Below are positions 29,516 through 48,100 of a stretch of 64,000 bases of DNA, piece after piece. Position 1 is the first letter of the stretch; each line of letters starts with the position of its first letter. The DNA comes from Deltaproteobacteria bacterium. Its GTDB lineage: Bacteria > Bdellovibrionota > Bdellovibrionia > Bdellovibrionales > Bdellovibrionaceae. The notes beneath the pieces were generated by a model that saw only the letters and a program-made list of their open reading frames with translations, searched no databases and was not told where the DNA came from. The position numbers were made by a program, and so were the translations under genes. Location of the stretch: contig JAFLCC010000002.1 in the NCBI GenBank assembly GCA_017302835.1, positions 186,001 through 250,000 on the forward strand. The letters run 5' to 3'.

Positions 29516-30010
29516 ATGTTGTTATCAGTAGACAAAGTTAAACCATTAAAACTTATAGCCTTTGATGTGGATGGTATCATGACAGATAATCATGTTTGGA
29601 TGATACAGCCGGGTGAATGGCGAAGAAATTTTTCGATCCGTGATGGTTATGGAATTCAAAAACTAATTGAAAGAGGCTACCAAATTGCTTTCATTACGGG
29701 GAGTCGAAGTGAAGATGTAAAAGAAAGAGCCAAAGTTTTGAAAATTCATTTTTTCTATGAAGGCAGTTTGAATAAGCTTCCAGCCTATCAGGAAATAAAA
29801 GAAAAAACAGGCTTTAACGATGAACAAATTCTATATATGGGGGACGATATTTTTGATATCCCATTAATTGAAAAAGCAGGATTTGGTGTGACAGTTCCAG
29901 AAGCACTTCCAAGTGTAAGAGAGAAAGCCAATTATATTACGCAAAACCATGGTGGCAAGGGTGCAGTTCGTGAAATATGCGAAATTGTGCTTGAAAATGG
30001 AAGTTTGTAA
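29516..30010 (+). CDS. kdsC: 3-deoxy-manno-octulosonate-8-phosphate phosphatase
   Basis: 164 residues, HAD superfamily without a cap domain, the KdsC size. Motif I is FDVDGIMTDN (nucleophile DxD), motif II ITGSRS, motif III Lys in the NKLPAY region, and motif IV MGDDIFDIPLI. It releases Kdo from Kdo-8-phosphate. Eleven bases separate its stop from the first gene of the glt1 cluster (AAGGGG ribosome site between), so LPS precursor synthesis and the motor genes probably share a transcript. Confidence 0.93.
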   Translation: MLLSVDKVKPLKLIAFDVDGIMTDNHVWMIQPGEWRRNFSIRDGYGIQKLIERGYQIAFITGSRSEDVKERAKVLKIHFFYEGSLNKLPAYQEIKEKTGFNDEQILYMGDDIFDIPLIEKAGFGVTVPEALPSVREKANYITQNHGGKGAVREICEIVLENGSL

Positions 30011-30021: not shown

Positions 30022-30774
30022 ATGGTTCGAAAGGGAATTAAAATTATAATTATTTTTATTCTGATTTTGCAGCCTTGTGGAGTTAGGGCCTTAATTCAGT
30101 TACCTGTGGAAGAATTGGCAAAAGAGTCAGTGACGCCGGTTTTTGATAAAAACGATAGTGTACGCAGCCGTAATATTGTAACCGCCAATAAAATGGAAAT
30201 GTCATTTTTCTACGGCTGGGCTTTGACAGAGCCAATAGCCAATGTCAGTAAGCTGGGTTTTAGTGGATATTATCACGCGTCTGAGGAAAATGCTTATGGC
30301 TTGATGTTAAGTAAAAATTTTTCTGGAGTTTCAACGTATGCCAAACAATTAAATGATGAATACAAGCTCGATTTTACAAGAGCTCCAACGATTGATTCCA
30401 GTTTATTTTTTGATTACAATTGGAAAGCCTTTTACGGAAAATTTAGCTTATCAAAATATATCGTAACCAATTTTCATTTTTTTGGAACTTTAGCTGCGGG
30501 ACTTTTAAAATACCCACACAAAACCTTTCCAGGAGTCGCGGCAGGGCTGGGGCAAAAATTTTATTTCAATAAAAATTTTTCATTTAGATTTGATTTTAGA
30601 GTTTTTGTAAATCAGGCGCCTATTCCATTTTTGAAGTGTGAACCTGGAAAGCATGAAGGCATAAAAAACTCAACAACAGATAGTTGCAATGAACCGGCTC
30701 CGAAGTATTCTGATTTTTCGGAAAGACTGACTTTGACCTCGGTTCTTGATTTAGGAATAAGCTATATATTTTAA
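30022..30774 (+). CDS. glt1: predicted outer-membrane beta-barrel (GltA/GltB-like)
   Basis: 250 residues. Signal peptide (about 7-24, IIIIFILILQPCGVRA), then alternating aromatic strands ending in the aromatic-terminated DLGISYIF, typical of outer-membrane barrels. Strand-like segments include MEMSFFYGWAL, GFSGYYHA and KFYFNKNFSFRFDFRVFV. Size and position just before GltB/GltC-like genes fit the GltA/GltB barrels of the Myxococcus gliding machine (myxococcal-type OMP family). Barrel sequence is poorly conserved, so orthology rests on context. First gene of the cluster. Confidence 0.7.
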   Translation: MVRKGIKIIIIFILILQPCGVRALIQLPVEELAKESVTPVFDKNDSVRSRNIVTANKMEMSFFYGWALTEPIANVSKLGFSGYYHASEENAYGLMLSKNFSGVSTYAKQLNDEYKLDFTRAPTIDSSLFFDYNWKAFYGKFSLSKYIVTNFHFFGTLAAGLLKYPHKTFPGVAAGLGQKFYFNKNFSFRFDFRVFVNQAPIPFLKCEPGKHEGIKNSTTDSCNEPAPKYSDFSERLTLTSVLDLGISYIF

Positions 30775-30785
30775 ACAAAGGGTAA

Positions 30786-31574
30786 GTGATGAGTAACTGG
30801 ACAAAAATAATAAAAAATATAATGGTCATTGTTATTTATTTATTTCCTTTTGCTATCCTGTCTCAAGAAACTGAAAATGAAGAATTAAATATTATCGAAC
30901 TTGAATTAGAAGGATCTAAACCTAAACCTAAAACAAGAAAGTCTTTTATTCCCACAGATACTTCAATAAAAAGAAATGAGTTTTCTGAATTAACTAGTTT
31001 AGCTCCTTTTAGTGAGGTTTCGGTTATTCAAAAAAGATTTTTACCTAAGACAAATAGATTTCAAATATTTGGTGGGCTGTCTTTAACAACCAATGATCCC
31101 TTTTATAATACTTTTGGGGCCACGTTAAAAGGGAGCTATTTTTTAACCGAAATGTTCGGCATTGAATTGCAATATTTTTCTTTAAGTTCAACAGAAGCGC
31201 AAGCAACCAAAGAACTTTTCTCTGTTCAAAACATAGGAACCGACAGCTTGAGTTACACAAAGGAGTATTTGGGGGCGAATTTATTATGGGTGCCTATATA
31301 TGGTAAAATGACTTGGTTTAACAAAAAGATAATACCCTTTGATTTCTATTTTGGATTAGGAGGAGGGAAAACAAAAACCCATGCTAAAAATGGAATAGGA
31401 ACGGTGCAAGTTTCTACTGGTCAAATATTTGCGGTGAGTAAAAGTTTTGCGCTACGATGGGATTTTAGTTGGAATTTTTTTAGTGCAAAAGCAATAAACG
31501 AAGAGGGGATGATTAATAACTTATTCTTTTCAGCGGGTGCAAGTTTTTTCTTGCCGGAGGCCAAATATAGATGA
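30786..31574 (+). CDS. glt1: second predicted outer-membrane beta-barrel (GltA/GltB-like)
   Basis: 262 residues with a signal peptide (about 9-27), an acidic/Lys-Pro linker and a barrel domain from about residue 85: NRFQIFGGLSLTTNDPFYNT, GSYFLTEMFGIELQYFSL, LLWVPIYGKMTW, FDFYFGLGGGKTKTH. The W-V-P-I-Y-G-K motif recurs in the glt2 barrel at 44558, showing common descent. An ATGA overlap couples it to the GltC-like gene. Probably the outer-membrane anchor of the trans-envelope complex. Confidence 0.75.
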   Translation: MMSNWTKIIKNIMVIVIYLFPFAILSQETENEELNIIELELEGSKPKPKTRKSFIPTDTSIKRNEFSELTSLAPFSEVSVIQKRFLPKTNRFQIFGGLSLTTNDPFYNTFGATLKGSYFLTEMFGIELQYFSLSSTEAQATKELFSVQNIGTDSLSYTKEYLGANLLWVPIYGKMTWFNKKIIPFDFYFGLGGGKTKTHAKNGIGTVQVSTGQIFAVSKSFALRWDFSWNFFSAKAINEEGMINNLFFSAGASFFLPEAKYR

Positions 31575-33121
31575 AGACAATTCTAATTATCATTTTACTT
31601 TCAACGGTGACCCTAGCCAGGACAAGGAAACAACTTATACAAGAAAAGCCTGTCGCCACGACAATAAAAGATAGTTCGTTGAAGAATCAATTATCCAACG
31701 CTTTAAATTTGGCTCAGTCAGGTCAATATCAATCGGCCGCTCAGGCATTATTTAACTTAGTGAGAAGGCCTGAATTGGTAAATGAAAGACCACAAATAAA
31801 ATATATCTTGGGAAAAATGTTGCAAGAGATGAAGTATTCTCAAGTGGCGGCCTACCAGTATGTTGATGTCATTCGAAGTGGCAATCAAAGATATCTTAAA
31901 AAAGCAATAGAGGAGTTATCTTTAGTTGCTGATTCTTTGGGAGATGATACTTTGTTGAATTACGCCGTATCAAAAGTGGATGTGAATGATTTTCCTGAAA
32001 ACAATAAAGATATGATTTACTTTAGAATAGGTGAAATCAAGTTGAAAAATAAAGACTTTGAGGATGCCGTTAATTCCTTTGGAAAGGTTTCATTTGGTAG
32101 TAGTTATAATAACCAGGCTCTTTTTAATAAGGCAATGGCATATTTGGAGATGAATAAAACGGAGCCAGCATTAGCGACCTTCAAGCAGTTGATTGAACAT
32201 CGAAGCAATGGATCGATTACCGATACTAATAAGATAGCTGCACAAATGGGAATGGCGAGGGCCTACTATCAAAAGCAGGACTGGGATACGGCGATCGAGA
32301 TGTACGCTCAAATACCGCGAGACCATTTTATGTGGCATGATGCTTTGTTTGAGCAATCATGGGCGATGTTAAGGGGCGCCAGATTCAGATCCGCATTGTC
32401 AAATTTTCAATCCTTACATTCCGCCTATTATGATGATTTCTATATTCCTGAATCCTTATTGTTAAGAGCTATCGTATATTTATATATCTGTAAATATGAT
32501 GAAATGGAAAAAGTTTTGACTTTGTTTGAAAAGACTTATGAGCCAGTCAAAGCGAAAATATCAAATTTTCTGAACAACAATAGTGAAGCGATATCCTATT
32601 ATAATGAATTAGAGAAAAAACTTTTTGATAAAAAGTTAGATGGAAACTCTGGTTCATTGAAAATACCTTATTTGGTTTTAAAAAATATTGGTGAAGAGGG
32701 TGATGTTCGAAGAAGTTTAAATTATCTGAAAAAAATTCAAGATGAAAAAACATCAATTGAATCGAGCGGATCATATCGTGCGTCTGGCTTAGGGCAATAC
32801 TCTGTCCGAGTTCTTAATACGAGAATCAAAAATACCAAAGTATTGATTGGTGATCTAGTAAAAATTCATTTGCAAAACATGAAGGAGGACCTGTTAGATC
32901 TTTTTGAACAATCAAGTTTTATTCGGTACGAGATGATCAATGGAAAAAAGGAACTGTTACGAAAGAAAATTGGTGGAAGAGATTTGCCTTCACCTATAGA
33001 TAATCAGTTAGATAGAGAATTTTATATTGAAAATGGTTTTGAATTTTATCCTTTTAAAGGTGAATATTGGTTAGATGAAATAGGAAATTATCACTATTTA
33101 GGGAAGCAAAGTTGTGAGTAA
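31571..33121 (+). CDS. gltC: glt1: GltC-like periplasmic TPR protein
   Basis: 516 residues, signal peptide to about residue 16, then TPR-type helix pairs through most of the chain (ALNLAQSGQYQSAAQALFNL, FRIGEIKLKNKDFEDAVNSF, ARAYYQKQDWDTAIEMYAQI). The C-terminus EYWLDEIGNYHYLGKQSC is shared with the shorter glt2 paralogue, which ends EEWLDEIGSHIYIGPSEC. In Myxococcus GltC is a periplasmic TPR protein encoded with the GltA and GltB barrels; the same order here supports the name. Start overlaps the barrel gene stop. Confidence 0.8.
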   Translation: MKTILIIILLSTVTLARTRKQLIQEKPVATTIKDSSLKNQLSNALNLAQSGQYQSAAQALFNLVRRPELVNERPQIKYILGKMLQEMKYSQVAAYQYVDVIRSGNQRYLKKAIEELSLVADSLGDDTLLNYAVSKVDVNDFPENNKDMIYFRIGEIKLKNKDFEDAVNSFGKVSFGSSYNNQALFNKAMAYLEMNKTEPALATFKQLIEHRSNGSITDTNKIAAQMGMARAYYQKQDWDTAIEMYAQIPRDHFMWHDALFEQSWAMLRGARFRSALSNFQSLHSAYYDDFYIPESLLLRAIVYLYICKYDEMEKVLTLFEKTYEPVKAKISNFLNNNSEAISYYNELEKKLFDKKLDGNSGSLKIPYLVLKNIGEEGDVRRSLNYLKKIQDEKTSIESSGSYRASGLGQYSVRVLNTRIKNTKVLIGDLVKIHLQNMKEDLLDLFEQSSFIRYEMINGKKELLRKKIGGRDLPSPIDNQLDREFYIENGFEFYPFKGEYWLDEIGNYHYLGKQSCE

Positions 33122-33124
33122 TTT

Positions 33125-36100
33125 ATGGATGTAAAGCATGTAAATCAGGGGAATCAATTCCTCATAGTTTTAGTTATAGTAAGTAATTTGTTTTTGAATC
33201 CATCTTATGGAAAAACTAAAAAAACAGTGGGAGAGTTGCTGTCTCAAGTAAGCTTAAAAAGTAGGGGTGGGAAATTAAATTCCAGTGAAAAAGGAAAGGC
33301 GCTCATACCTAAGTATGACCCGATTCAATTCGAAAAAGTGAGAAATGAGCACAATTTGGATAGCGTCAAACCCATTAAAGCTTACGAGATCATAAAATCA
33401 GATAGTATTTCTAAGATGGTGGAATATGAAAAAATTTTAGATGAACAAATTCAAGAGCTATTTAAGTTAACAAAAAAATTTAAAGATTCAAATAATCGTG
33501 GAGAGCTGTGGCTAAGATTAGCTGAACTTTATGTTGAAAAGGGATCCTTAATAGATTATCGGATGCAAAAAGAATTTGATAAAAAATTGGTTTTGTATCA
33601 GCAAAAAAAAATCAGTCAAAAACCGAAACTAGACACAGAAGAGGCAAAGAATTATTTCAAAAAATCAGTTCAGCTTTACGAGTGGTTTCAGAAAGATTTC
33701 CCTAAGGATCCAAAAGTTCCCCAAGCGCTCTATTTTTTAGGATTTAATTATTTTGAATTAGGTGAGCCAGCAAAGGCAGAGAAATATTATTCTGAATTGA
33801 CAGCAAAATACCCGCAAAGCCCTTTTGTCGACGAGTCCAATTTTGCTCTTGGCGAGCATTATTTCGAACTTGAAAAATGGAAAGTGGCCTATCAAAAGTA
33901 TTCTTCAGTAATAAAGAATCAACGTCATAGTTTGAATGTCATGGCTACTTATAAAGGGGCATGGTGTCTGTATAGGTTGGGAAGATTCAACGAGGCACTT
34001 AAATACATGGAGCATATTATTCAGAAGAATAGAAATCTTGAAGATCGTGACAACGCCAAAAAGATTAAAGCTAAATTAGAGGGTGAAGCTCTTAAGGATA
34101 TCATTGTTTTTTACGCAGCGGCAGGAGATCTTGAGAATTCAATTCAGTATTTCAATGATTTGACGGGAGCGCAGGCTAATTTTTATTTAGAGAAATTGGC
34201 CTATTACTCAGCAGACAAAGGGCAAAAACAATCTGCTCATAAGATTTTTCAATATTTGATTTCACAAAATCCAACTAGTCCTAAAGCTTTTGAGTTTCAA
34301 TATCAAATAGTTCAGATCTATTTTTACTCAAAAAATTCGCCAGCCTTTAAATCAGAATTATATAAATGGATTAAGGAATATGGTTCGACGTCGCCTTGGT
34401 ACCAGGCTAATCAGTCAAATGCTGAATTAATAGAAAACTCAATGAAGTTAAGAGAAAAAACTTTAAGAATTTGGACATTGCAACAACATCAAACGGCTCA
34501 AAATTCACGATCGAAGAACTCACAAAGCATGGCTATTGAGGGGTATAATTTGTATCTGTCTGAATTTGCAACGACTCAGCAAAGTTCGGATATGCATTTT
34601 TATTATGGAGAATTACTTTATGATATGAAAAAGTACGATGAGGCGGGTGTGCAATATAAATGGATTATTGACAACTCTCCGCAGAGTAAATTTTACGAAA
34701 ATTCAGCTTCGAGTTTGTTGATTGCAGTTGAAAAAAGTTTACCTGGTGAAAAAGATTTGGCCAAAAGAGATTCTAAAAGCTTAGAACCCATTCCGTTGAG
34801 TCCTACAGTGGATAGATTTATTAAAGCGTCTAACTGGTATCTGGAAAAACTTCCAAATTCAGATAAGGTTCCTGAGATAAAATTTAGACAGGGTCGTTTG
34901 ATGTATCAACACAATTATTTTGCAGATGCGAATAAGGTTTTTAAGGAAATTGTTTCAAAATATCCTAAAACTAAATATGCCGAATATTCAGCAAATTTAA
35001 TGTTGGATATCTATAATCTAAAGAAAGACTATGTGGGTCTAGAGTTCGCAGCAAGCGAGCTTTTAAAGAATGAAAGTCTGGCCGCAACCAAGGCGGGTAG
35101 TGAAATTAAGGAAGTATTAGAAAAGGCAAGTTTTAAAAAAGGTCAGGACTTTGAAGCAGAGGGTAAATATTTGGAAAGTGCGGAAGCTTTTTTTAATTTT
35201 GCAAAACAGAATCCAAAATCTACTTTTGCTATCATTGCTTTGTTTAATGCAGGAGTTAATTATGAAAAATCTGCTCAAAATGAGAAAGCAAAAAACTCTT
35301 ATTTGTTAGTTCTTAATTCGAATCAAGACAAAAAAGATCTCAAATATAAAGCGAAGATATTTCTTGCTAAACTTTTTCAGGAAGCTGTTTTGTTTGATGA
35401 GTCCATCAAGTTATATAAACAACTGATTAAGGAAGATCAAAAGTCTAAACAAAATCAGAACTTTTTATACAATATTGCTGTTATGAAAGAGGCTCAAGGC
35501 CACTATGTTCAGGCGATAGCAGATTATGAGGAGTATGTTAAGGGTCTTAAAAAGTGGAAAGAAAAATTAGATTTGATGTATGTACTTGCCGATTTATATA
35601 GAAAATCTGATCAGCTTACTAAGGCGCAAGAAAAATATAAAGAGTATATAGATAACAATCCAGGAGATGGAGAAAAGTTACTTGAGTCTTACTATTGGAT
35701 GGGAAAGATTTATGAACTCAAAGGATCAAGTCAGTCGTATCAGTGGGAAGATAGATTGTTAGGTGTTCAAAAACGATTATCTGTTGCCAAAAAAAATATT
35801 GGAAGCAAATGGGTTGCAATGGTTAAGTTAAAAAAAGCCAAAGAAACGTTTTCAGAATTGATCGAAGTAAAAATTCCTAACCAACCAGAAAAGCAAAAAA
35901 AAGCAGTTGAAGAAAAAATCAGTGTGCTAAATAAATTAAATAAAGAATTAAACGATGTTGTGGCTTTAAATAGCCCAAATGAGATCATTAGCGCTTTAAG
36001 CTTATTAGGTGAAGCTAATGAGCACATGGCAAGTGCCATTTTAAAGTCACCTGTTCCTAAAGGATTAGGTGCTGACTTAGAAAAGCAGTACAGAGATTCA

Positions 36101-36301
36101 TTGCCAAAACTAGCTGAACCATTTTTAAATCGTTCAAGAGAAAGTTATAAATTAGCAGTAGAAAGAGGATTTGAGTTTGAAAGTTATAATTATGATTTTG
36201 AAAAATCATATCAATTTATGAATAAACAAGATCCAAAAAGATATTATAATTCTGGAGAAATGAAATTTGATACTCGTTTTATCAACTGGATGTCCTTATG
36301 A
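33125..36301 (+). CDS. gltD: glt1: large periplasmic TPR protein, GltD (AgnA)-like
   Basis: 1058 residues. An N-terminal signal peptide (about 12-29) and then TPR or TPR-like repeats across nearly the full length (for example LYFLGFNYFELGEPAKAEKY, FALGEHYFELEKWKVAYQKY, FNAGVNYEKSAQNEKAKNSY). The C-terminal 250 residues are helical with the motif ASAILKSPVPKGLGA, whose equivalent AQSIKNSPPPQGLDE occurs in the 1008-aa glt2 paralogue. Length and place before GltE-, GltF- and GltG-like genes fit GltD. It likely forms the periplasmic scaffold between motor and outer membrane. Stop overlaps the next start (ATGA). Confidence 0.78.
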   Translation: MDVKHVNQGNQFLIVLVIVSNLFLNPSYGKTKKTVGELLSQVSLKSRGGKLNSSEKGKALIPKYDPIQFEKVRNEHNLDSVKPIKAYEIIKSDSISKMVEYEKILDEQIQELFKLTKKFKDSNNRGELWLRLAELYVEKGSLIDYRMQKEFDKKLVLYQQKKISQKPKLDTEEAKNYFKKSVQLYEWFQKDFPKDPKVPQALYFLGFNYFELGEPAKAEKYYSELTAKYPQSPFVDESNFALGEHYFELEKWKVAYQKYSSVIKNQRHSLNVMATYKGAWCLYRLGRFNEALKYMEHIIQKNRNLEDRDNAKKIKAKLEGEALKDIIVFYAAAGDLENSIQYFNDLTGAQANFYLEKLAYYSADKGQKQSAHKIFQYLISQNPTSPKAFEFQYQIVQIYFYSKNSPAFKSELYKWIKEYGSTSPWYQANQSNAELIENSMKLREKTLRIWTLQQHQTAQNSRSKNSQSMAIEGYNLYLSEFATTQQSSDMHFYYGELLYDMKKYDEAGVQYKWIIDNSPQSKFYENSASSLLIAVEKSLPGEKDLAKRDSKSLEPIPLSPTVDRFIKASNWYLEKLPNSDKVPEIKFRQGRLMYQHNYFADANKVFKEIVSKYPKTKYAEYSANLMLDIYNLKKDYVGLEFAASELLKNESLAATKAGSEIKEVLEKASFKKGQDFEAEGKYLESAEAFFNFAKQNPKSTFAIIALFNAGVNYEKSAQNEKAKNSYLLVLNSNQDKKDLKYKAKIFLAKLFQEAVLFDESIKLYKQLIKEDQKSKQNQNFLYNIAVMKEAQGHYVQAIADYEEYVKGLKKWKEKLDLMYVLADLYRKSDQLTKAQEKYKEYIDNNPGDGEKLLESYYWMGKIYELKGSSQSYQWEDRLLGVQKRLSVAKKNIGSKWVAMVKLKKAKETFSELIEVKIPNQPEKQKKAVEEKISVLNKLNKELNDVVALNSPNEIISALSLLGEANEHMASAILKSPVPKGLGADLEKQYRDSLPKLAEPFLNRSRESYKLAVERGFEFESYNYDFEKSYQFMNKQDPKRYYNSGEMKFDTRFINWMSL

Positions 36302-37179
36302 TAAAAATTCTATGGTGCATGAGTTATTTGATCCTTTCAGCTTGTTCCAGCTCATATAAAAATAATGCGGTAAGTGCAAGCTCCAAGAATGAAAACGAAA
36401 GATTAGACTTCGGTGAAAATAATTCAATGAATGTAAGAAAAGAGAAATCGGCTCAGTCTTCTGATCGAAATCAATCGGCGCCACAGCCAATGATGGGGAC
36501 AAGTGAAAGCGCGGCAAGCTCATCTTCACAATTAGCTGTGTACATAAAAAATCAAGATGATGAAGGGGTTTTAAAAGAAAGCTCACGGTTGTTGATTCAA
36601 AATTCAAATGATTTCAAAGCGCTCAATGCTATGGCAATGGTTTATTACAAAAAAGGGCAATTTAACCTTGCTAAGAATTTACTTTTTAGGGCCCAGAAAA
36701 ATAATCCTACTTTTGAAGTCTATTCAAACTTGGGAATTGTGTTATTGGGTAATGAGGAAAGAAATGAAGCGTTAAGGCAATTTAAAAAGGCTCTAGAGTT
36801 AAATCCAAATGATTCCGTGAGTGCGAGCAATGCGGGCTCAATCTACATAAAAGCCTATGACTATGAAAAAGCTAACTTGGTTTTAGAAAATTCTTATAAA
36901 CGGGGAATTAAGGATTTTCGGGTTCTAAATAATTATGCCATTTCACTGGTTGGGTTGGGTAAATATGAAAATGCAGAATCTGTATACAGAGAGGCCCTGA
37001 AGGAGAATAGTAGTAACAAGGAAGTGTTATTTAATTTTTCGATTTTACTGATTGAACATTTGAAAAAGAATCAAGAGGGCTTGGAAGTTTTGCAGAAATT
37101 GAAGTTTATTGGAATCCCTGAACAGTCAAGGAATAAGATACAAGAGCTTGAGTTGATAGCACGAAAGGGGCAAAAGTGA
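36298..37179 (+). CDS. gltE: glt1: TPR lipoprotein, GltE (AglT)-like
   Basis: 293 residues with lipobox LILSAC (Cys16, Ser +2), a Ser/Asn-rich linker to about residue 75, then four or more TPRs (AMAMVYYKKGQFNLAKNLLF, SNLGIVLLGNEERNEALRQF, NNYAISLVGLGKYENAESVY). Ser at +2 predicts the outer membrane. Adventurous-gliding TPR lipoproteins such as AglT have this layout, and it lies between GltD- and GltF-like genes. No counterpart exists in glt2. Overlaps both neighbours by four bases. Confidence 0.75.
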   Translation: MIKILWCMSYLILSACSSSYKNNAVSASSKNENERLDFGENNSMNVRKEKSAQSSDRNQSAPQPMMGTSESAASSSSQLAVYIKNQDDEGVLKESSRLLIQNSNDFKALNAMAMVYYKKGQFNLAKNLLFRAQKNNPTFEVYSNLGIVLLGNEERNEALRQFKKALELNPNDSVSASNAGSIYIKAYDYEKANLVLENSYKRGIKDFRVLNNYAISLVGLGKYENAESVYREALKENSSNKEVLFNFSILLIEHLKKNQEGLEVLQKLKFIGIPEQSRNKIQELELIARKGQK

Positions 37180-37466
37180 GTAGAACACAAAAGTTATTAT
37201 TAATTTTTCTTTTAGGACTTTCGTATAGTTTTGCCCAGTCAACAAACGTGACTAATAAATCTAATTATGTGAAAATCAAAGACAAGAAGGCCACGTTAAA
37301 TTTTGAGAATGAATTAGTGGAAGGTTCCACACAAAAACCAGAACTTTTTTATTTATTTCAAAAGAAAAATTTTAACTATAAGAGGCTAATCAAATTGAGA
37401 GAAAACTTTTTACCTGAGATGCGAAAAACCTCAGAGGATGTTCAGCGAGTTCGGGGTGTTAATTGA
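37176..37466 (+). CDS. glt1: GltF-like small periplasmic protein
   Basis: 96 residues, signal peptide to about residue 20 (SYSFAQ). The core ATLNFENELVEGSTQKPELF matches ILDFEGEVIEGERRRPDLF in the 128-aa protein of glt2, a small motif that seems to mark this family. In both clusters the gene lies immediately before the FHA/GltG-like gene. GTG start overlaps the previous stop; its own stop overlaps the next TTG start. Function unknown beyond its place in the complex. Confidence 0.68.
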   Translation: MSRTQKLLLIFLLGLSYSFAQSTNVTNKSNYVKIKDKKATLNFENELVEGSTQKPELFYLFQKKNFNYKRLIKLRENFLPEMRKTSEDVQRVRGVN

Positions 37467-39541
37467 AACCACCAGTAATATTGCGAGTTTACAAAAACAA
37501 TCAACTGAATGAAGTGAAGCAATTCACTATTGATCAAATTGTTGTGGGTTCTAATTTAGAAGCGCAATTGGTATTGTCCGACGATTCCATTTCCCCTATT
37601 CATTGTTTAATTGAAAAAAGAGATAGCGGATATTATATCTGTGATTTAGGTTCGCAAAACGGCACCTTTAAAAATGGTCAAGCCGTTCTTGATGAACCCA
37701 TTCAATCTGGGGATGAAATTTTTGTTGGCAAATTTAAACTCGTGTTTTTCATTGGAATTCCAAAGCCAGTTGGGATTCCTAAGTCTCAAGAGACCCTTGA
37801 TTCATCAGCTGTGAAGACAGAAGGCATTGACGTCGTCAAGGTTCAAGATAAACAACCATTGTCGAAGCAGACATCTGCTAACGACAACCTTATAAAAAAA
37901 ACAAAGGAAATTAAAGACTCTAAGAAATCTAATTTTAATCAAGTTTCAAAACCCCAAATTGATAAATTAAGTCCTGTAAAGTCAACGCGCAAAAAGAAGA
38001 GGGTCTCTTTTGCTCCTCCAGGTCAGATTCATAGTTTGAAGTCATATTTATCGCCGACGAGGGGTAGTGTGATTGAAGTCAACCTTACTTGGAATGAAAG
38101 AGTTATTCAGAGTTATCATTTTAAGCATAAAGGAATAGTTAAGGTCGGGCCAGAACAGGAAAAGCAGATTAATATCCCATCAAGTTCGTTACCCTTAAAT
38201 TGGCCACTTCTTGAAATTTCAACAACCTTGAAAGTTTTTTTACCAGTGGGTTCGGAAGTTGAGCTTCTTAATTTAAAAACCTCATTGACTGAGGAAACTT
38301 TATTTTCCATGGGAAAAGCCAGTAAAATGTCACAAGGCTTTCAGGTGAGATTAGATCAGGGGGATTTGCTCTTTGTAAACTTACCGGATAAAAATCTGGG
38401 GCTTTGCATTCGTTTTGTTGAGAATACGGGCGTTGTGCCGTTTGCCCCGTTGTTGTTATCGAGTTCTGAAATTGGTAGCATTGCATTGTCAGTTTTGATG
38501 TCCTTGATGTTAGCATTTTATGTTTCAACGATGACTTCAAAAACTCAACCTAATCCAACAGAAATAAAAACAACTTACACTGCAGAAGTTTTATTCAATG
38601 AAAAACCAAAACAACCTAAACCTCCCGAGCCGCCAACTCCTCCAGAGTTGCCAAAAATAAAACCTCCCGAGCCCGAGATCGTAAAGGTGAAAGCCTCCGA
38701 TGCAAATCGTGAAGCTTCGGTAAAAGGAAAGATTCCTTCTCAAAATAAAGCGGTATCAAATCAAGTTGCCAAAAAAGCTGTTGAAGTGGCGCCTATTGCC
38801 AATTCACAAAATAAGCTCAAAAAATTTACATCATTACGTCAAGGTGGAGCTGTTAAAATTGGATCTCAAGCTGGAGCCAATGCACAAAGTGATAAAAAAG
38901 ATGTCAGTAAAATTGGTTTATTTAGTGCATTCGGTTCGGGGGGAGTAAGATCTAAAATGGATCAGGCCTATCAGGGAGCTGGAGATATTTTAGGGAGCGC
39001 AGATAAAGCCAGTGGATCAACAGGATTTGGTGAAGACCGTCCAGGTGAAGATTTAGGATCAAAATTTAAAGACACGGGCCGTGGAGGAAAAGGGACAGCT
39101 ACCGAAGGCATTTCGGGAATTGGGACAAAAGGCCGAGCTGGAGGAACCAGTAGTTATGGGTCCATTGATGGTTTCGGAGATAAAACAACAGTTGCTATTC
39201 AAGCTGGTGGAAGTGAGGAGAGTTTTGAGGGTTCCATTGATAAAGATGCTGTAAGAAGAAGAATCACTTATAATTTAAATTTAATAAGAGGTTGTTACAA
39301 TCAAGAGCTGAATAGGTTAGATAAATCAGGACGAAAATCTTTAGAAGGAAAGGTTGTCTTAAAGTGGGAGATAGTAAATAATGGAGTAGCTAAAAATGTG
39401 AGAGTTTCAAGCTCGACACTTAACAATCGGGAAATTGAAAAGTGTATCGCAGAAAGGCTTGCAACTATTGTTTTTCCTGATCCGCCAAAGGATACGACGG
39501 CAGAGGTTATGTATCCATTTGTTTTTAGAAATGATAAATAA
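37463..39541 (+). CDS. gltG: glt1: GltG-like FHA, single-pass, AgmX/PglI-tail protein
   Basis: 692 residues from a TTG start overlapping the previous stop. Residues 20-95 are a canonical FHA domain (VVGSNLEAQLVL, SISPIHCLIE, LGSQNGTFKNG) in the cytoplasm. A cytoplasmic linker leads to one membrane segment (about 335-355, IALSVLMSLMLAFYVSTM). A Pro-rich stretch (about 375-410, KPPEPPTPPELP) and Gly-rich region follow in the periplasm. The last 95 residues are the AgmX/PglI-type, TonB-C-like tail (GCYNQELNR, VVLKWEIVNNGVAKNV, VMYPFVF). GltG links the cytoplasm and inner-membrane motor to periplasmic Glt proteins. Confidence 0.88.
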   Translation: MKPPVILRVYKNNQLNEVKQFTIDQIVVGSNLEAQLVLSDDSISPIHCLIEKRDSGYYICDLGSQNGTFKNGQAVLDEPIQSGDEIFVGKFKLVFFIGIPKPVGIPKSQETLDSSAVKTEGIDVVKVQDKQPLSKQTSANDNLIKKTKEIKDSKKSNFNQVSKPQIDKLSPVKSTRKKKRVSFAPPGQIHSLKSYLSPTRGSVIEVNLTWNERVIQSYHFKHKGIVKVGPEQEKQINIPSSSLPLNWPLLEISTTLKVFLPVGSEVELLNLKTSLTEETLFSMGKASKMSQGFQVRLDQGDLLFVNLPDKNLGLCIRFVENTGVVPFAPLLLSSSEIGSIALSVLMSLMLAFYVSTMTSKTQPNPTEIKTTYTAEVLFNEKPKQPKPPEPPTPPELPKIKPPEPEIVKVKASDANREASVKGKIPSQNKAVSNQVAKKAVEVAPIANSQNKLKKFTSLRQGGAVKIGSQAGANAQSDKKDVSKIGLFSAFGSGGVRSKMDQAYQGAGDILGSADKASGSTGFGEDRPGEDLGSKFKDTGRGGKGTATEGISGIGTKGRAGGTSSYGSIDGFGDKTTVAIQAGGSEESFEGSIDKDAVRRRITYNLNLIRGCYNQELNRLDKSGRKSLEGKVVLKWEIVNNGVAKNVRVSSSTLNNREIEKCIAERLATIVFPDPPKDTTAEVMYPFVFRNDK

Positions 39542-39566
39542 AGTTATTTAATTAAGGAGGACTAAA

Positions 39567-40232
39567 GTGAACCCAATACAACAATGTGATCCGAATAGTT
39601 TTATCGCCAGAGCTTTCTGTGAGGGTGGATGGGTCATGTATATCATTGCTATTTTTGCCATATTAACGGTTATTCTTGTTATTGAAAGGATGATGAAGCT
39701 GAATTCTTTACTTGTTAATAAACGGGATTTTACGGACAGCATTTTTAGGATGGTTGTTAATGGCGACATTCGACAAGCTATTTCACATTGTGATTCAAGG
39801 CCGTCTCCCTTAACGAACACAGTCAAGGCAGGGTTAGTGCAAGCATTAAATAAAAGACCTGATGAGGAAATTCAAGTCGCTATGGACGCTTCGGTTCTGA
39901 GAGAAATGCCTAAGATAGAAGGTATGACATCCTTTTTAGCTGTATTTGGAAATGTGGCGGTGTTAGCTGGGTTATTGGGTACAATCATGGGAATGATTGG
40001 ATCTTTTAGAGCTGTTTCTGAGGCAGATAACGCGACAAAAGCTCAGCTTCTTTCTCAAGGAATTTCCCATGCTCTGAATTGCACCGCTTTCGGTCTTTTA
40101 GTTGCTATTGTGGCAATCGTTTCTTACGGAGTGTTTCAACATCAAATTCAAAAAACAGAAAATGAAGTTGTAGAGACGAGCATGTCATTACTCAATTTAG
40201 TAGTTGCCAACAGAGACAAGATAAAGGATTAG
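39567..40232 (+). CDS. aglR: glt1: TolQ/ExbB/MotA-family motor protein, AglR-like
   Basis: 221 residues from GTG with AAGGAGG six bases upstream. Three membrane segments: about 20-42 (GGWVMYIIAIFAILTVILVIE), 127-152 (VFGNVAVLAGLLGTIMGMIGSF) and 172-195 (ALNCTAFGLLVAIVAIVSYG). The G-L-L-G-T-x-x-G-M and T-A-F-G-L-x-V-A-I motifs are those of TolQ/ExbB. With two TolR-like proteins downstream it forms a proton-channel motor as AglRQS does for Myxococcus gliding. Confidence 0.92.
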   Translation: MNPIQQCDPNSFIARAFCEGGWVMYIIAIFAILTVILVIERMMKLNSLLVNKRDFTDSIFRMVVNGDIRQAISHCDSRPSPLTNTVKAGLVQALNKRPDEEIQVAMDASVLREMPKIEGMTSFLAVFGNVAVLAGLLGTIMGMIGSFRAVSEADNATKAQLLSQGISHALNCTAFGLLVAIVAIVSYGVFQHQIQKTENEVVETSMSLLNLVVANRDKIKD

Positions 40233-40233
40233 C

Positions 40234-40710
40234 ATGTCACATATTGATTCAGGAGGAGCAAGGGGAAGGCCTGTCAGTGTTGAACTTAACTTAGTTCCTT
40301 TTATTGATTTGATGAGTGTTCTTATTACATTCCTGTTGATCACAGCGGTGTGGACTCAGGTATCAATGATTCAGATAGGGAGCTCTCTCTATGCTAAAAA
40401 AGATGAGAGTGCAAGCTCACCTAAACCTCCTCCCAATGCTGACATCGCTTTAAAAGTCGACGTGAAAAATGATGGCTATGTTTTAACCGTAGGCACTCAA
40501 GTCATTTCCATTCCAAAGGTGGCGGCTTCTTATGACAATTCCAGCTTAGTTGCTCAGCTACAACGGTTCAAACAACTTTATCCGGATAAAATTGACGGAA
40601 TCGTGAGCATGAGTGATCAGGTTCCTTATGAACAGTTAATAATCATTATGGATTATTTTTTAGTTGCCGGGTTTCCTAATATTTCTATAGCTACAGGGGG
40701 GCCTTACTAA
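40234..40710 (+). CDS. aglQ: glt1: TolR/ExbD-family motor protein, AglQ-like
   Basis: 158 residues. One N-terminal membrane segment (about 22-45) has the proton-carrying Asp in VPFIDLMSVLITFLL. The periplasmic domain ends with the ExbD-like strand-helix VPYEQLIIIMDYFLVAGFPNISIA. It lies one base after the TolQ-like gene and abuts the next TolR-like gene, so stoichiometric motor assembly is implied. AglQ versus AglS naming follows order only. Confidence 0.88.
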   Translation: MSHIDSGGARGRPVSVELNLVPFIDLMSVLITFLLITAVWTQVSMIQIGSSLYAKKDESASSPKPPPNADIALKVDVKNDGYVLTVGTQVISIPKVAASYDNSSLVAQLQRFKQLYPDKIDGIVSMSDQVPYEQLIIIMDYFLVAGFPNISIATGGPY

Positions 40711-41300
40711 TGCCGATTCGACGACCAGGAGAAAGATATAGATATCATCGAATACTTAATCGAAAAAAAGGCAAAAGATCTTTAACGGCCATTCTCTCTT
40801 TGACGGCCATGGTAGACATGTTTACGGTGTTAGCTATTTTTCTTTTGCAAAACTACAATGTTAAGGATTTTATTGTTTATACCCCTAAAGAAGTTATTTT
40901 ACCAAAGGCTCAATCAACAAAGGAATTAAAACCTGCCTTTGTAATTACGATATCAAAAAAAGAAATTCTATTGGATAAAACGGCGGTAGCCTCTTTTGCT
41001 GAAGTTCAATCTCAGCAAGATTGGTTAATTAAATCATTATATGATCAATTACAGCAAGGATTGATAAGATCAAAGCAAGAATTTTTAGGTAAGCTGCAAA
41101 ATAAAATTAAAACAGCGGTTGAAGATGCGCGAGGAGAAAAAGACGAAGATCCATTTGCATGGAAAAAAATTACGATTCAATCAGATAAAGATATTGATTT
41201 TCTGACTGTTAAAAAAATTATGTACACTGTCACTGAGGCCGGAGCTGGTGAAATTAATTTTGCTGTTATTAAAAAAACTGATAAAGAAATTGCAAAATAA
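40710..41300 (+). CDS. aglS: glt1: second TolR/ExbD-family motor protein, AglS-like
   Basis: 196 residues. Basic N-terminus (RRPGERYRYHRILNRKKGKR), one membrane segment (about 27-46) with Asp in TAMVDMFTVLAIFLL, then a periplasmic domain longer than usual because of a charged insertion (about 105-150) before the ExbD-like tail (DFLTVKKIMYTVTEAGAGEINFAV). Start overlaps the AglQ stop by one base. Last gene of glt1; lptCA begins 25 bases later. Confidence 0.86.
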   Translation: MPIRRPGERYRYHRILNRKKGKRSLTAILSLTAMVDMFTVLAIFLLQNYNVKDFIVYTPKEVILPKAQSTKELKPAFVITISKKEILLDKTAVASFAEVQSQQDWLIKSLYDQLQQGLIRSKQEFLGKLQNKIKTAVEDARGEKDEDPFAWKKITIQSDKDIDFLTVKKIMYTVTEAGAGEINFAVIKKTDKEIAK

Positions 41301-41324: not shown

Positions 41325-42272
41325 ATGCGGAATTTAAAAAGAACCATATTTTTATTCTTATTATTTTTAATTATTCTTGAAGTTATTTTTATTTTTCCAA
41401 AACAATTAGAGACAGCAAATAATATTGTAGACTCGAATCCTTTAACTCAAGAAAAAGCAGAGCAAAAAATGGATGGAGTTCATCTTGTTGAATCTCAAAA
41501 GGGCAATCGGGATTGGGAGCTTTTTGCGGAAAATGCCAGAGGTTATCAGGGAGAAGGTGATTGGTTTTTAAAAAAAGTGAAGGTTCAATTTTATAATAAA
41601 GATAAAATTGATTTTATCGTTACTGGTGATGAGGGTGAAATTGATGGAATAACCAGAAACATGAAAGTGAAAGGAAATGTCGTTATTACATCCAGCAATG
41701 GATATCTATTTTATACCGCGGAGTTATTTTATAATTCTATTTTAAGAAAAATAATCTCTCCAGGAGAGATTAAAATGGTGGGGCCCGGAGATGAGCAAGG
41801 GGAAGGGCTCGTATTAAATGGAAGAAATATGCATGTTTTGATTGATATATCGGAGATGAAAATATTTAAAGATGTACAATCTTCTAAAAAACTAAAGAAT
41901 ATGAATAATTTAAATATTCAAAGTGAGTCGGCACTTTTTAGCAGTCAAAATAAAGAAGTTCATTTTCAGAATAATGTTATTCTTATCTACAATGATATGA
42001 TCATTCGTGGGCCTGATTGTTATTTTAATTATTCTCATAATATGAAAACTTTGGAGTATATTCGAGTCAAAGGTGGTGTCGAAGTTAAAGACAAGAAACG
42101 CAGGGCGATCAGTGAGGAGCTGGAAGTTAACTTGCAGAGCAATATACTTAAATTCAATGGGAATCCAAAAATCTATCAAGATGAAGATGAAATTAGTGGA
42201 GATGAAATTTTATTTTTTGATGGTGGAAAAAAAATAAAAATTCAAAAAGTAAAGGCTTCAAGCCAGATTTGA
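41325..42272 (+). CDS. lptC: LptC-LptA fusion: periplasmic LPS transport protein
   Basis: 315 residues, far longer than LptC alone (about 190). Membrane anchor at about 7-23 (IFLFLLFLIILEVIFIF). Residues 35-190 follow LptC: WELFAENARGYQG, VTGDEGEIDGITRNMKVKGN, YTAELFYNSILRKI and GEGLVLNGRNM. Residues 195-310 follow the LptA/OstA fold: IQSESALFSSQNKEVHFQNN, YIRVKGGVEVKDKKRRAISE, LKFNGNPKIYQDEDEISGDE. LptC receives LPS from the LptBFG extractor and LptA forms the periplasmic bridge. lptB follows after 33 bases with no separate lptA, which supports a true fusion. No clear ribosome site precedes the ATG. Confidence 0.87.
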   Translation: MRNLKRTIFLFLLFLIILEVIFIFPKQLETANNIVDSNPLTQEKAEQKMDGVHLVESQKGNRDWELFAENARGYQGEGDWFLKKVKVQFYNKDKIDFIVTGDEGEIDGITRNMKVKGNVVITSSNGYLFYTAELFYNSILRKIISPGEIKMVGPGDEQGEGLVLNGRNMHVLIDISEMKIFKDVQSSKKLKNMNNLNIQSESALFSSQNKEVHFQNNVILIYNDMIIRGPDCYFNYSHNMKTLEYIRVKGGVEVKDKKRRAISEELEVNLQSNILKFNGNPKIYQDEDEISGDEILFFDGGKKIKIQKVKASSQI

Positions 42273-44557: not shown

Positions 44558-45277
44558 ATGAAATTAAATAAAAAAACCATTTTCATATTATTGTCTATTT
44601 TTTTATTCGCTAGTGAAAGCTTTTGCCAGACAAAAAGCGTTGAGGGAAGTAAAAAATCTACGTTAGATCGTTCTTTGGAGCCAACAGTTTCAGATGAAAT
44701 ATCATCCTTGTTTGAAAATGTAGTTGCAGTTCAAAGAAAGGCGAAAGTAAAATCTGGAAAATTTTTGTTTGCTCCCTATTTGTCTTTTGATTTTTCGGAT
44801 TCACCGCAAACGATGTATGCCTTTAATTTCAATATGGGATATGCTATCGGCGAGTTTTTTGAGATTTATTTAAATTATGTTCCCTCCTATGTAAATAATG
44901 AAAGAAGTATTTCGAAAAAAGTTCGTGAATTGCGACCTTATCCTGATGATGGCACGACTCCTTACATAGATGTCGAAAAAGTAAAGAACTCTTTCGGGCT
45001 TGAGTTAAATTGGGTTCCCATTTATGGGAAAGATTCTTGGGGTCCCTATGGAATTATTCGTTCTGATACCTATTTAAATGTGGGCTTCAGTCGAATTAAC
45101 TATACGACTAATTCTGGTTATAAAACGAAGTTAGCTATGGGGAAAACATGGTTTATATCAGATTATTGGAATCTAAGGTTGCAAGCGGGCGGATCATTTT
45201 TAGAAACTTTTTCTAAAGGAAAAAAAGAAATTATTGTGATTGGCTTATTAGAGGGCGGTTTGGTTTACTATTTTTAA
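44558..45277 (+). CDS. glt2: predicted outer-membrane beta-barrel (GltA/GltB-like)
   Basis: 239 residues with signal peptide to about residue 23. Barrel strands from about 70 (KFLFAPYLSFDFSD, MYAFNFNMGYAIGEFFEIYL, LNWVPIYGKDSWGPYG), ending in GLLEGGLVYYF with a terminal aromatic. The W-V-P-I-Y-G-K motif is the same as in the second barrel of glt1. Only one barrel gene is present here, against two in glt1. It starts glt2 85 bases after rpoN. Confidence 0.74.
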   Translation: MKLNKKTIFILLSIFLFASESFCQTKSVEGSKKSTLDRSLEPTVSDEISSLFENVVAVQRKAKVKSGKFLFAPYLSFDFSDSPQTMYAFNFNMGYAIGEFFEIYLNYVPSYVNNERSISKKVRELRPYPDDGTTPYIDVEKVKNSFGLELNWVPIYGKDSWGPYGIIRSDTYLNVGFSRINYTTNSGYKTKLAMGKTWFISDYWNLRLQAGGSFLETFSKGKKEIIVIGLLEGGLVYYF

Positions 45278-45296
45278 TTATATTTAAGGAGACTCT

Positions 45297-45935
45297 ATGT
45301 TTATCATTAACTCATTGGAAATTTTATTTAAAGAAGGTGGTGCCACTGCTTATTTTATAGTTGGAAGCGGCATTGCACTTGTCATTTTAGCAATTGCAAA
45401 AATTAACTACTTGTATGTTCAGCTGCGGCCAGCAGGAGATAGCAATTTAAAAGAAGTGAGCCGTTTGGTTTTGAAAAAAGAATACACAGCTGCTATCCAA
45501 GTATGTAATACCGTGAAGAATGTTCCCGAATTCGAAGTTATTAAGTCAGGACTTATGGCCGTTGATGGGGGTAGGGAAGCGATGAAATCTTCATTGGGAT
45601 CAGCGGTTGTTGATATCATGAAGAATTGCGAAAAAGGGATTCAGTTTTTAGCTTTGATAGCTAGTGTGGCAACTTTGTTAGGATTGCTTGGAACTATTTC
45701 AGGGCTAATGAAAACATTTGCGGCATTAAAAGATATTGATCCCGCGAAAAAAGCAGAGCTTTTGGGAACGGGAATTTCAGAGGCCATGACTGCAACTGCA
45801 GCAGGACTTGTTGTTGGTATTTCAGCAATGGTGATTCATACTTTATGCACACAAAAAATTGATCAAATTATTGGGCAGGCCAAAAAAACTGGTTTTGATA
45901 TCATTACCTTAGTAGAGCAAAGCGAAAGAGCATGA
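45297..45935 (+). CDS. glt2: TolQ/ExbB-family motor protein, AglR-like
   Basis: 212 residues, AAGGAGA before the ATG. Three membrane segments: about 18-40 (AYFIVGSGIALVILAIAKINY), 110-132 (LALIASVATLLGLLGTISGLM) and 158-182 (ATAAGLVVGISAMVIHTL). The LLGLLGTISG and T-A-T-A-A-G-L motifs are standard. It shares the fold but little close identity with the glt1 protein. The motor genes here precede GltC, whereas in glt1 they close the cluster. Confidence 0.9.
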   Translation: MFIINSLEILFKEGGATAYFIVGSGIALVILAIAKINYLYVQLRPAGDSNLKEVSRLVLKKEYTAAIQVCNTVKNVPEFEVIKSGLMAVDGGREAMKSSLGSAVVDIMKNCEKGIQFLALIASVATLLGLLGTISGLMKTFAALKDIDPAKKAELLGTGISEAMTATAAGLVVGISAMVIHTLCTQKIDQIIGQAKKTGFDIITLVEQSERA

Positions 45936-46456
45936 GTTTAGAGTTTGCAGAAATCCAAAGAAGACACACGCCTGAGCCAGAATTGGTACCCATTCTGGAC
46001 GCGTTGACTTGTATCATCTTTTTTTTGATGTACACGACTACCTTTATGGAACTGACAAGCCTAACTCTGCCCCCCTCTGCCGTGAGTGTGGTCAAAGAAC
46101 AAAATGTTGCTGATGGTAATCCTTTGACGCCAAAAATATTTGTGAACATCGTAAATTCAAATTTAGAAGTCATTTTGAAATGGACGGGAAGCGCTCCTGG
46201 GAAAATTAAGAAAACAATTAGTCGGTTTAAGTCTGAAAGATATTCCAAAGACCTTGAAATAGCGATGACTGTACTTATCGAGGAATTTGTCAAAAAATTT
46301 CCAAAAGAAAAAACAATTCAATTGGGATTGGCAGAAGGTAGCACCTATCAAGAACTAATCACTATCATGGATGGAATACGAAAGAATATACAGGATATTG
46401 TCCTGATGTCACCTGATGATGTGACTCACTTTAATGAGGAGTCAAATGGATCTTGA
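45932..46456 (+). CDS. glt2: TolR/ExbD-family motor protein, AglQ/AglS-like
   Basis: 174 residues. Membrane segment about 20-42 with Asp in LVPILDALTCIIFFLMY. The periplasmic region is basic in the middle (KIKKTISRFKSERYSKD) and ends with the ExbD-like motif STYQELITIMDGIRKNIQDIVLMSP. Start overlaps the TolQ stop (ATGA). Together with the next gene it completes a one-TolQ, two-TolR set like that of glt1. Confidence 0.86.
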   Translation: MSLEFAEIQRRHTPEPELVPILDALTCIIFFLMYTTTFMELTSLTLPPSAVSVVKEQNVADGNPLTPKIFVNIVNSNLEVILKWTGSAPGKIKKTISRFKSERYSKDLEIAMTVLIEEFVKKFPKEKTIQLGLAEGSTYQELITIMDGIRKNIQDIVLMSPDDVTHFNEESNGS

Positions 46457-46919
46457 ATCTTTAGAAACTCAGAAAAGGCATCCTCTCAGGTTGCAATTGG
46501 CTCCGATGATAGACATCTTTTTCTTAATCATCATTTTTTTATTGAAATCAACAATCGTTGCAGATGTTTCGATTATTTTTCCGAGCCAAATGCATCCTCC
46601 AATAAGTCTTAGCAAGGAAGGATTAGAAACATTTCCTGAGGTGGTTCTTACTGACAAAGAAGTAAATATAAGTTTTTTAAATGAGAATTTGAATCTTTCT
46701 CAAATAAATAATATGACGGAAGAAAAAATTGAAGAATTAAAGTTAAAAGTGGAAGCCTACATTAGGAATAAAGATGAAAAGATAAGAGCTCAATCAATCA
46801 ATGTAAACTTTCTGACATCACGTGAAAATAGTTATAAGAATATTTTTATCGCAGTCAAATTTCTAAGGAAAATAGGATTTCAGTCAATTCAGTTTATCGC
46901 AGAAGGTGAATCTAAATGA
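46446..46919 (+). CDS. glt2: second TolR/ExbD-family motor protein
   Basis: 157 residues from ATG at 46446, which has GAGG seven bases upstream; ATG 46434 would add four residues. Membrane segment about 17-38 with Asp in LAPMIDIFFLIIIFLL. The periplasmic domain ends YKNIFIAVKFLRKIGFQSIQFIAE, the typical ExbD tail. It overlaps the preceding gene by 11 bases and the GltC-like gene by four. Confidence 0.85.
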   Translation: MDLESLETQKRHPLRLQLAPMIDIFFLIIIFLLKSTIVADVSIIFPSQMHPPISLSKEGLETFPEVVLTDKEVNISFLNENLNLSQINNMTEEKIEELKLKVEAYIRNKDEKIRAQSINVNFLTSRENSYKNIFIAVKFLRKIGFQSIQFIAEGESK

Positions 46920-48100
46920 GAATTTTTCGAATAGAAAATATCTCAAGAATGTTTTTCATTTTAACATCAATGGTGATGATGTCTAAGACGGTGAGTTTTG
47001 CAGAATCTTTGGTGAGTGTGCTTCGTGAAATGGAAAAAAAATCTGATGATTTAGGTATTAGAATTGTTATTCGCAAAAATTTCAAAAAGTCCTTGAGTAT
47101 TCAAGAGTGGTTTGAAATAAGAAAGATCCTGATTAGAAGACCAAAAGTGGGTTTTGACGCGAAAACCGCTTGGGATAGACAAATTTCTTTAAGATCTTCT
47201 AACCTACAAAAAGAATCGGATAAGATTTTTTTGTTTTTAGAAAAAGCAGATGAATACACACTCAATCAGCAATATGAAAAGAGTTTTGATATGTATCAGC
47301 GGGCCGCGAAGTATTTTAAAACTTCGAATAAGGGCAGAGTTCCTAAAGGGAACCAACAGCTGTACTTAAATATTATTCATCAAATGGGCAGAACGCTCTA
47401 CGCTCAAAAAAGATTTAATGAGGCTTTGGAAGTTTACAGCTGGATATCCCCCGTTTATCCTCAAATTCGGCAGGTTTTATTTGAAAAAATGTGGACAGCC
47501 TTTCGTGCAGGAAAGTATGACCTAGCTCTAGGTGCGATCGCTTCACAGCAGTCTGGTTATTTTTCGGAATATTTACATCCGGAAAGTTATTTGATTAAAG
47601 TCTATATTTTTAAGCGCCTATGTCGGAAAAAAGATTTGGTTTACACGGTTGAGGCATTAAAGAATTATTTAGCCAGTCTTAAAAGTGGGAAATTCGATGC
47701 GATTGAATGGGCTAAATCAGACCTGTATTATATGTCTTTAGCTCAGCTCATAGAGGTTTCTAAAAACTCTAAAATGGAGCTATTGAAGTATGCTTCTAGA
47801 GTCGAAAGACAAAATGAAATTAAAAAAATTCATGAATCTCTAAAGGAGAGATTTAAAGTTCATAAAGAGGTTTTGCAAAACCAACTTGAGCGAGTTTATG
47901 GTTATGCTTCCTTGGCTCTAAGTAACGAACAGGATTTTCTGAAACCAATAAGTACGTTGCCAGAAGCAAAGGTATTGGAAAAAAAAGGATACGAGCTATG
48001 GCCTTCCGGGGATGCTGAAGAATGGTTAGACGAGATTGGCAGCCACATATATATTGGTCCATCAGAATGTAAAGAAAATGCAAGCAATACAGAAAAATAA
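46916..48100 (+). CDS. glt2: GltC-like periplasmic TPR protein
   Basis: 394 residues, with a signal peptide (about 10-30, ending SFA). The middle has TPR-like helices (YTLNQQYEKSFDMYQRAAKY, GRTLYAQKRFNEALEVYSWI, FRAGKYDLALGAIASQQSGY). The tail EEWLDEIGSHIYIGPSEC matches the end of the 516-aa glt1 GltC. Compared with that protein it lacks about 120 residues of repeats. ATGA overlap with the TolR gene couples motor and periplasmic parts. Confidence 0.78.
   Translation: MRIFRIENISRMFFILTSMVMMSKTVSFAESLVSVLREMEKKSDDLGIRIVIRKNFKKSLSIQEWFEIRKILIRRPKVGFDAKTAWDRQISLRSSNLQKESDKIFLFLEKADEYTLNQQYEKSFDMYQRAAKYFKTSNKGRVPKGNQQLYLNIIHQMGRTLYAQKRFNEALEVYSWISPVYPQIRQVLFEKMWTAFRAGKYDLALGAIASQQSGYFSEYLHPESYLIKVYIFKRLCRKKDLVYTVEALKNYLASLKSGKFDAIEWAKSDLYYMSLAQLIEVSKNSKMELLKYASRVERQNEIKKIHESLKERFKVHKEVLQNQLERVYGYASLALSNEQDFLKPISTLPEAKVLEKKGYELWPSGDAEEWLDEIGSHIYIGPSECKENASNTEK

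Follow-up and report, generated by a model that had tools for sequence, protein, structure and literature searches.

What is a set of ten genes resembling the gliding machinery of Myxococcus xanthus for in a member of the Bdellovibrionaceae? The question is raised by a locus in a genome labelled Deltaproteobacteria bacterium (assembly GCA_017302835.1), lying in a window of 64,000 nucleotides, the whole stretch of DNA analysed (contig JAFLCC010000002.1, positions 186,001 to 250,000). An initial annotation, made from the sequence alone, had called it a complete gliding-type trans-envelope machine and suggested a single-locus gliding or prey-contact motor, and our analysis supports that interpretation in part. 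We consider it probable that the locus, here called system A, encodes a proton-driven trans-envelope force transducer of the Agl-Glt type, ancestral in Bdellovibrionales, which would most likely serve attack-phase grip and motion on surfaces and prey. The single-locus arrangement of the ten genes is not new: the machine is real, well conserved and already described. New here are the occurrence of system A in all 27 genomes of the order that were searched, mostly with the same neighbours, and three further Glt machines in the genome, one of them in the window and two elsewhere. Also new are a lipoprotein gene with a metal ion-dependent adhesion site (MIDAS) in a VWA domain that accompanies the C- and D-type systems but not A, fusions of GltD with GltE, and a genome (G005) with system A alone.

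Ten consecutive plus-strand open reading frames (ORFs) do occupy positions 30022-41300, and profiles of the flanking genes place them between kdsC and lptCA (Table 1), as first annotated. The description of these genes as mostly overlapping by 1-4 bases holds barely, for five of the nine junctions (barrel 2-gltC, gltD-gltE, gltE-gltF, gltF-gltG and R1-R2); the other four have gaps of 1-25 bases. Proteins were scored with Pfam and NCBIfam profiles against curated cut-offs. Both annotated outer-membrane barrels exceed the cut-off of their model, and the GltC-, GltE-, GltF- and GltG-like proteins and the TolQ/TolR/TolR motor were recognised as homologues by profile. No GltD model matched the GltD-like protein, which is assigned by its TPR content, size and position. 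GltG matched NF033760 over the full length, with an FHA domain (6.4e-15) and an AgmX/PglI tail (NF033768, 86.6 bits, cut-off 40). The arginine with which FHA domains normally read phosphothreonine is present in only 5 of 24 A-type GltG proteins and not in that of the window. The aspartate that would carry protons is kept in R1 and R2 in 24 of 24 A-locus rows each. A scan for promoters and terminators gave 12 terminator-like sites against 12.5 expected and is hence uninformative.

Table 1. Genes of system A, its flanks, and related Glt features of the same genome (window coordinates unless a locus is named).
Feature	Position	Strand	Evidence and remarks
Outer-membrane barrel 1, GltA/B-like	30022..30774	+	TIGR04565 78.2 bits (cut-off 60)
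Outer-membrane barrel 2, GltA/B-like	30786..31574	+	TIGR04565 103.5 bits (cut-off 60); 8-stranded model
GltC-like TPR protein, long C-terminal helix, conserved tail ExWxDExG...C	31571..33121	+	NF033756 E 7.6e-52
GltD-like large TPR protein	33125..36301	+	TPR profiles, size, position; fused to GltE in relatives
GltE-like TPR lipoprotein	36298..37179	+	NF033758 E 2.2e-17; lipobox LSAC by eye
GltF/CglF-like small exported protein	37176..37466	+	NF033764 E 9.4e-11
GltG-like putative force transducer: FHA, Pro-rich linker, AgmX/PglI (TonB-like) tail	37463..39541	+	NF033760 E 2e-64
AglR-like TolQ/ExbB-family motor subunit (Q)	39567..40232	+	PF01618 MotA_ExbB E 2.8e-27
AglQ-like TolR/ExbD-family subunit (R1)	40234..40710	+	PF02472 ExbD E 1.5e-16; membrane Asp kept
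AglS-like TolR/ExbD-family subunit (R2)	40710..41300	+	PF02472 ExbD E 2.6e-10; membrane Asp kept
kdsC, flank, outside the machine	29516..30010	+	TIGR01670 154.2 bits; ends 11 bases before barrel 1
lptC-lptA fusion, flank, outside the machine	41325..42272	+	TIGR04409 on 8-184, TIGR03002 on 193-307
Second Glt cluster (system B): barrel, TolQ, TolR, TolR, GltC-, GltD-, GltF-, GltG-like	44558..53382	+	No GltE
VWA/MIDAS lipoprotein genes of the C- and D-type clusters	L022 14766-15944; L023 15920-17047		Relatives of the Bd0875 invasion adhesin

Structural models add to these assignments. The AlphaFold2 model of barrel 2 has eight strands (predicted local distance difference score, pLDDT, 84.2; predicted template modelling score, pTM, 0.69), and its nearest Foldseek matches are OmpA and OmpW (E 7.3e-6 and 1.1e-5). 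The model of GltC shows a TPR solenoid and a long helix (406-467), after which comes a poorly predicted stretch at 473-516. Since this tail nevertheless holds residues invariant across 46 aligned sequences (E498, W500, E503, G505 and C515), it perhaps folds on a partner. Searches of solved structures and folds with GltC, GltG and Q returned generic TPR, FHA and TolQ/ExbB matches only. According to the GltE profile, GltD and GltE form a single ORF in 6 of 23 complete loci of the order (L071, L072, L073, L074, L078 and L083) and in four loci elsewhere in the phylum (L084, L087, L088 and L090), with GltE at the C-terminus of GltD, and such fusions argue that the two proteins work as one piece.

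The distribution of system A was followed in a phylum sample of 114 genomes, 27 of them from the order (the own genome, 14 of the same family and 12 of the same order). An A-type GltC query matched 100 of the 114, including all 27 of the order, with identities of 35-62% in the other 26. Loci were retrieved from 24 of these 26, all but G048 and G061. The ten genes stand in full order in 17 of them, six have the same order with GltD and GltE in one ORF, and one is cut by a contig end. Barrel 1 opens the cluster in all but the cut locus (23/24). Among the 23 complete loci the upstream neighbour is pyrG, kdsD or kdsC in 21 (kdsC in 15), and lptC follows downstream in 18. The same gene-order test on named loci, the best 80 of 264 and none of them named Myxococcus, gave 41 full, 11 fused and 28 incomplete clusters, the last mostly on short contigs to judge by their gene lists (L130, L144, L147 and L156 were inspected more closely). 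Because the same order recurs in distant relatives, chance grouping of the ten genes can be regarded as excluded. No relatives of the cluster were found in viral contigs by tblastn. An A cluster of Bdellovibrionales type, in its usual setting, stands in a metagenome-assembled genome titled Streptomyces griseus (L124, CALQIT020000007.1), which is probably mislabelled.

The closest point of contact with experimental work is genome G073. Its A locus (L064) has the same ten genes, order and kdsC/lptCA flanks as the window; the A-type GltC proteins are 62% identical, the genera being different by label (g1 vs g3), and the Q, R and GltC trees support orthology. From its length, 3,782,950 bases in one contig, we take G073 to be strain HD100. 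The gene numbers fit: the VWA, PilZ, Q and R1 genes of its D-type cluster would be numbered Bd1483, Bd1482, Bd1481 and Bd1480, and in published papers Bd1483 is a MIDAS protein, Bd1481 aglR and Bd1480 aglQ. By sequence comparison the window locus is orthologous to HD100 Bd0828-0838, which has the same genes, order and flanks, with no difference in parts found.

Lambert et al. 2010 described four tonB-like/agl operons in HD100, Bd0828-0838 among them, and Luciano et al. 2011 named this one the best gliding candidate and proposed it as a gliding machine. The claim of a single unit in place of separate Myxococcus loci is borne out, and its novelty is not, the arrangement having been published in 2010-2011. 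All ten components of the expanded Agl/Glt core of Luciano et al. 2011 (AglR, Q and S with GltD, E, F, G, C, A and B) are present and clustered here, GltD counted by TPR content and position. M. xanthus, where the same authors report two-hybrid contact between AglR and GltG, shares homologues of AglR, Q, S, GltA/B, C, D, E, F and G with the window locus, but encodes them in three loci (G1, G2 and M1) rather than one, and GltJ and a CglB-like gene are missing from the locus here. Calling the machine complete was too strong: GltJ is absent, GltH, I, J and K were not found in Bdellovibrio according to Luciano et al. 2011, and the locus holds no adhesin gene. The proposed link to prey contact has fared better. 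The HD100 insertion mutant Bd0838::tn (AglS) is defective in attachment to, killing and rounding of prey, and Bd0836, which would be the TolQ-like gene when counted back from Bd0838, is listed among the genes required for predation (Duncan et al. 2019). A 197-amino-acid small GTPase with a TVPGQ motif, an MglA by eye that the NCBIfam MglA model did not match, is encoded in G000, G005 and G073.

System A is one of four Glt systems of its genome: B shares the window with it, while C is found on contig 17 and D on contig 6. A and B differ in gene order and are separated only by lptCA, whose two domains share one ORF starting 24 bases after R2, and by lptB and rpoN (assigned by eye from the ORF list). 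The B order recurs in one other genome of the family (G094, L176), whereas the Glt clusters located in G073 comprise A, two C-type, one D-type and one motor-less mini-cluster, with no B-type. Mini-clusters of this kind (barrel-GltC-GltF-barrel; L174 7755-11079, L180 and L181) are paralogues of the outer part of A, and in the GltC tree the mini-cluster GltC branches, with weak support (83/83), as the sister group of the A clade. By eye, GltG of cluster B begins with an FHA-like stretch. A PilZ gene (53448-54458, minus strand) adjoins B, and in L131 a PilZ protein with GYF domains (19910-20617, minus strand), resembling the GYF-PilZ gene of D-type clusters, adjoins A; control by cyclic di-GMP is possible at such clusters. 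A protein of about 262-267 amino acids with an AgmX/PglI tail is encoded outside any Glt cluster (G000:C18:27184-27453; L012, L024), with similar lengths recurring in relatives. Further downstream the window carries three tandem signal peptidase I (S26) genes (59264-61456).

The C- and D-type clusters (Bd0411-0421 and Bd2368-2377, and Bd1473-1483, in HD100) have the same kinds of parts as A, with no GltE-like gene found. They differ from A in gene order, in a shorter GltG and in a MIDAS/VWA lipoprotein gene inside the cluster. This gene is coupled to GltC in 5/5 C-type clusters, where the two overlap by 1-4 bases or are 2 bases apart. In all three D-type clusters whose upstream end was covered it is found upstream, separated by a PilZ gene. 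The two such proteins of the own genome match the NCBIfam Bdellovibrio MIDAS adhesin model below its cut-off (1.7e-8 and 1.1e-17). In D-type clusters R1 has alanine at the position of the membrane aspartate (4/4: L023 14044-14580, L172, L184 and L185, a set that includes the gene corresponding to Bd1480 'aglQ'), so the D-type motor would keep only one proton carrier. Medina et al. 2008 assign Bd1483, as a putative protein, to a cluster for gliding motility, and Lowry et al. 2022 count the VWA gene bd3099 among gliding genes. These are the nearest precedents we found; no paper on MIDAS lipoproteins as Glt-cluster adhesins turned up in a search that left most subscription papers outside. Relatives of the MIDAS genes occur elsewhere in the genome in 13/13 genomes. 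In six of these (G073, G112, G083, G005, G107 and G036) a Bd0875-like gene follows A on the same strand at a distance of roughly 26-41 kb downstream, which may be plain synteny; in the other seven it is on a different contig or far from A.

Could the locus be something other than a prey-contact motor? That it is a Tol-Pal- or TonB-like system for envelope stability or uptake, misnamed as gliding machinery, we regard as very improbable. Tol-Pal does share the TolQ/TolR families, and Q matches the TolQ model TIGR02796 at 87.3 bits, under the cut-off of 221. However, a tree built from 43 TolQ-family proteins, which came with a long-branch warning, splits the Glt-type Q proteins from the TolQ and three ExbBs of the own genome (support 100/99). 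A tree of 84 TolR-family proteins makes R1 and R2 two paralogue groups common to systems A-D, and Q and both R subunits lie outside the Tol/Exb clades. These trees are built without M. xanthus sequences, and the closeness to AglRQS is that reported by Luciano et al. 2011. The genome encodes 15 MotA/TolQ/ExbB proteins and has a separate Tol-Pal-like locus (L025), where an ORF that by eye resembles TolB adjoins Q and R; on the trees and this locus we reject a Tol-Pal origin of the A motor. Moreover, profiles found no TolA, TolB or Pal in the ten-gene locus, and GltG bears the AgmX/PglI tail.

The genomic setting beside Kdo and Lpt genes suggests another role, in which an Agl/Glt-type machine moves a surface polymer or builds the envelope, with a part in handling surface polysaccharide or lipopolysaccharide, rather than propelling the cell. 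The precedent is the Nfs spore-coat machine of M. xanthus, a Glt-like outer part that has no motor genes of its own and is driven by the AglRQS motor. Its role is sporulation, unlike that of the window locus, and Agl-Nfs moves polymer on the spore surface (PMC3858216). We think such a role distinctly unlikely. Bd0838 insertion mutants grow host-independently yet fail to attach to prey, and kdsC lies directly upstream in only the 15 complete loci counted above, the cluster being intact where kdsC is absent or displaced. Because the neighbours vary while the cluster stays constant, the lipopolysaccharide link is kept only as a rival. We are somewhat less doubtful of an engine mainly for gliding on abiotic surfaces, in which case the defect in attachment would be a secondary effect, although this too seems unlikely. 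The homology to M. xanthus A-motility speaks for it, as does gliding of B. bacteriovorus independent of type IV pili; but the surface-induced aglQ is Bd1480, and the biofilm-predation mutants map to Bd1481 and Bd1483, all genes of the D-type cluster and not of A. A 2026 review calls the gliding machinery of Bdellovibrio unidentified.

Several observations weigh against the proposed role in gripping prey. The GltC, GltE, CglF and GltG models were matched, but at 176.9, 63.1, 41.6 and 218.3 bits all stayed below their equivalog cut-offs of 450, 225, 90 and 650, scores that mark the proteins as homologues without certifying them as equivalogs of the Myxococcus ones. For GltJ the own genome gave seven partial matches, confined to the shared tail domain and to short stretches; the best scored 43.8 bits, and none reached the cut-off of 450. 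The A locus contains no VWA/MIDAS (CglB-like) adhesin gene, and one lies nearby in 1 of 104 A loci (111 were searched, of which 7 are not A loci). This single case (L144 2610-3779) is about 5 kb upstream with flgK/flgL-like flagellar genes (by eye) between, and a MIDAS gene as member or neighbour of A was rejected. Deletion of Bd0875 leaves about 90% of invasion, and Bd0875 can thus not be the only adhesin. The attachment tests used host-independent mutants, array data show Bd0828-0838 up in host-independent growth and not at 30 min of predation, and we found no gliding assay of the window locus or Bd0828-0838 in the literature. Finally, the equation of G073 with HD100, and the identity given below to G005, rest on genome lengths, joined for G073 by the agreement of gene numbers.

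The prey-contact motor that we favour might work as follows. A ring of the TolQ-family protein with an R1/R2 heterodimer would draw on the proton motive force, and GltG, through its FHA domain and TonB-like periplasmic tail, would pick up the motion. From there it may pass via the GltF/GltD/GltE scaffold of TPR proteins and GltC to the two small barrels, which would couple to an adhesin at the cell surface. The gene for this adhesin would lie outside the locus, and its product may be a MIDAS/VWA lipoprotein. Other stages would be served by the C- and D-type machines, which come with MIDAS lipoprotein genes of their own.

G005 bears on this last point. Its genome, one contig of 2,657,893 bases that is listed as 100% complete, keeps only system A (L070) by three markers. 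One of its four MotA/ExbB-family matches is at a Glt cluster, namely A; two barrels exceed the cut-off, both within A; and one GltG lies in a Glt cluster, the other tail-domain protein being without Glt neighbours. The A-only state is seen in this one genome, and G089 and G107, which carry the same genus label, have further Glt systems. By its length we presume G005 to be the non-invading (epibiotic) predator B. exovorus JSS. In the HD100 proteome Bd0411-0421 reaches its maximum in early bdelloplasts and Bd2368-2377 when the predator exits, and the matching clusters of G073 are both C-type. Read together with the A-only genome, this fits a division of labour with A for contact and C-type systems for work inside and leaving prey. 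More tentatively, and with rather more doubt than confidence, one ancestral motor, A, may grip prey, while duplicates with their own MIDAS/VWA adhesins (C and D) built intra-prey life and exit and a non-invader keeps A alone; A itself would use interchangeable outer parts, namely unlinked MIDAS adhesins of the Bd0875 family and the motor-less barrel-GltC-GltF-barrel modules. For the biology of these predators, comparing the loci offers a direct route to placing them in life stages: a single universal locus stands beside accessory ones that bring adhesins of their own, the latter missing from the presumed non-invader. The same comparison also predicts which adhesin goes with which motor.

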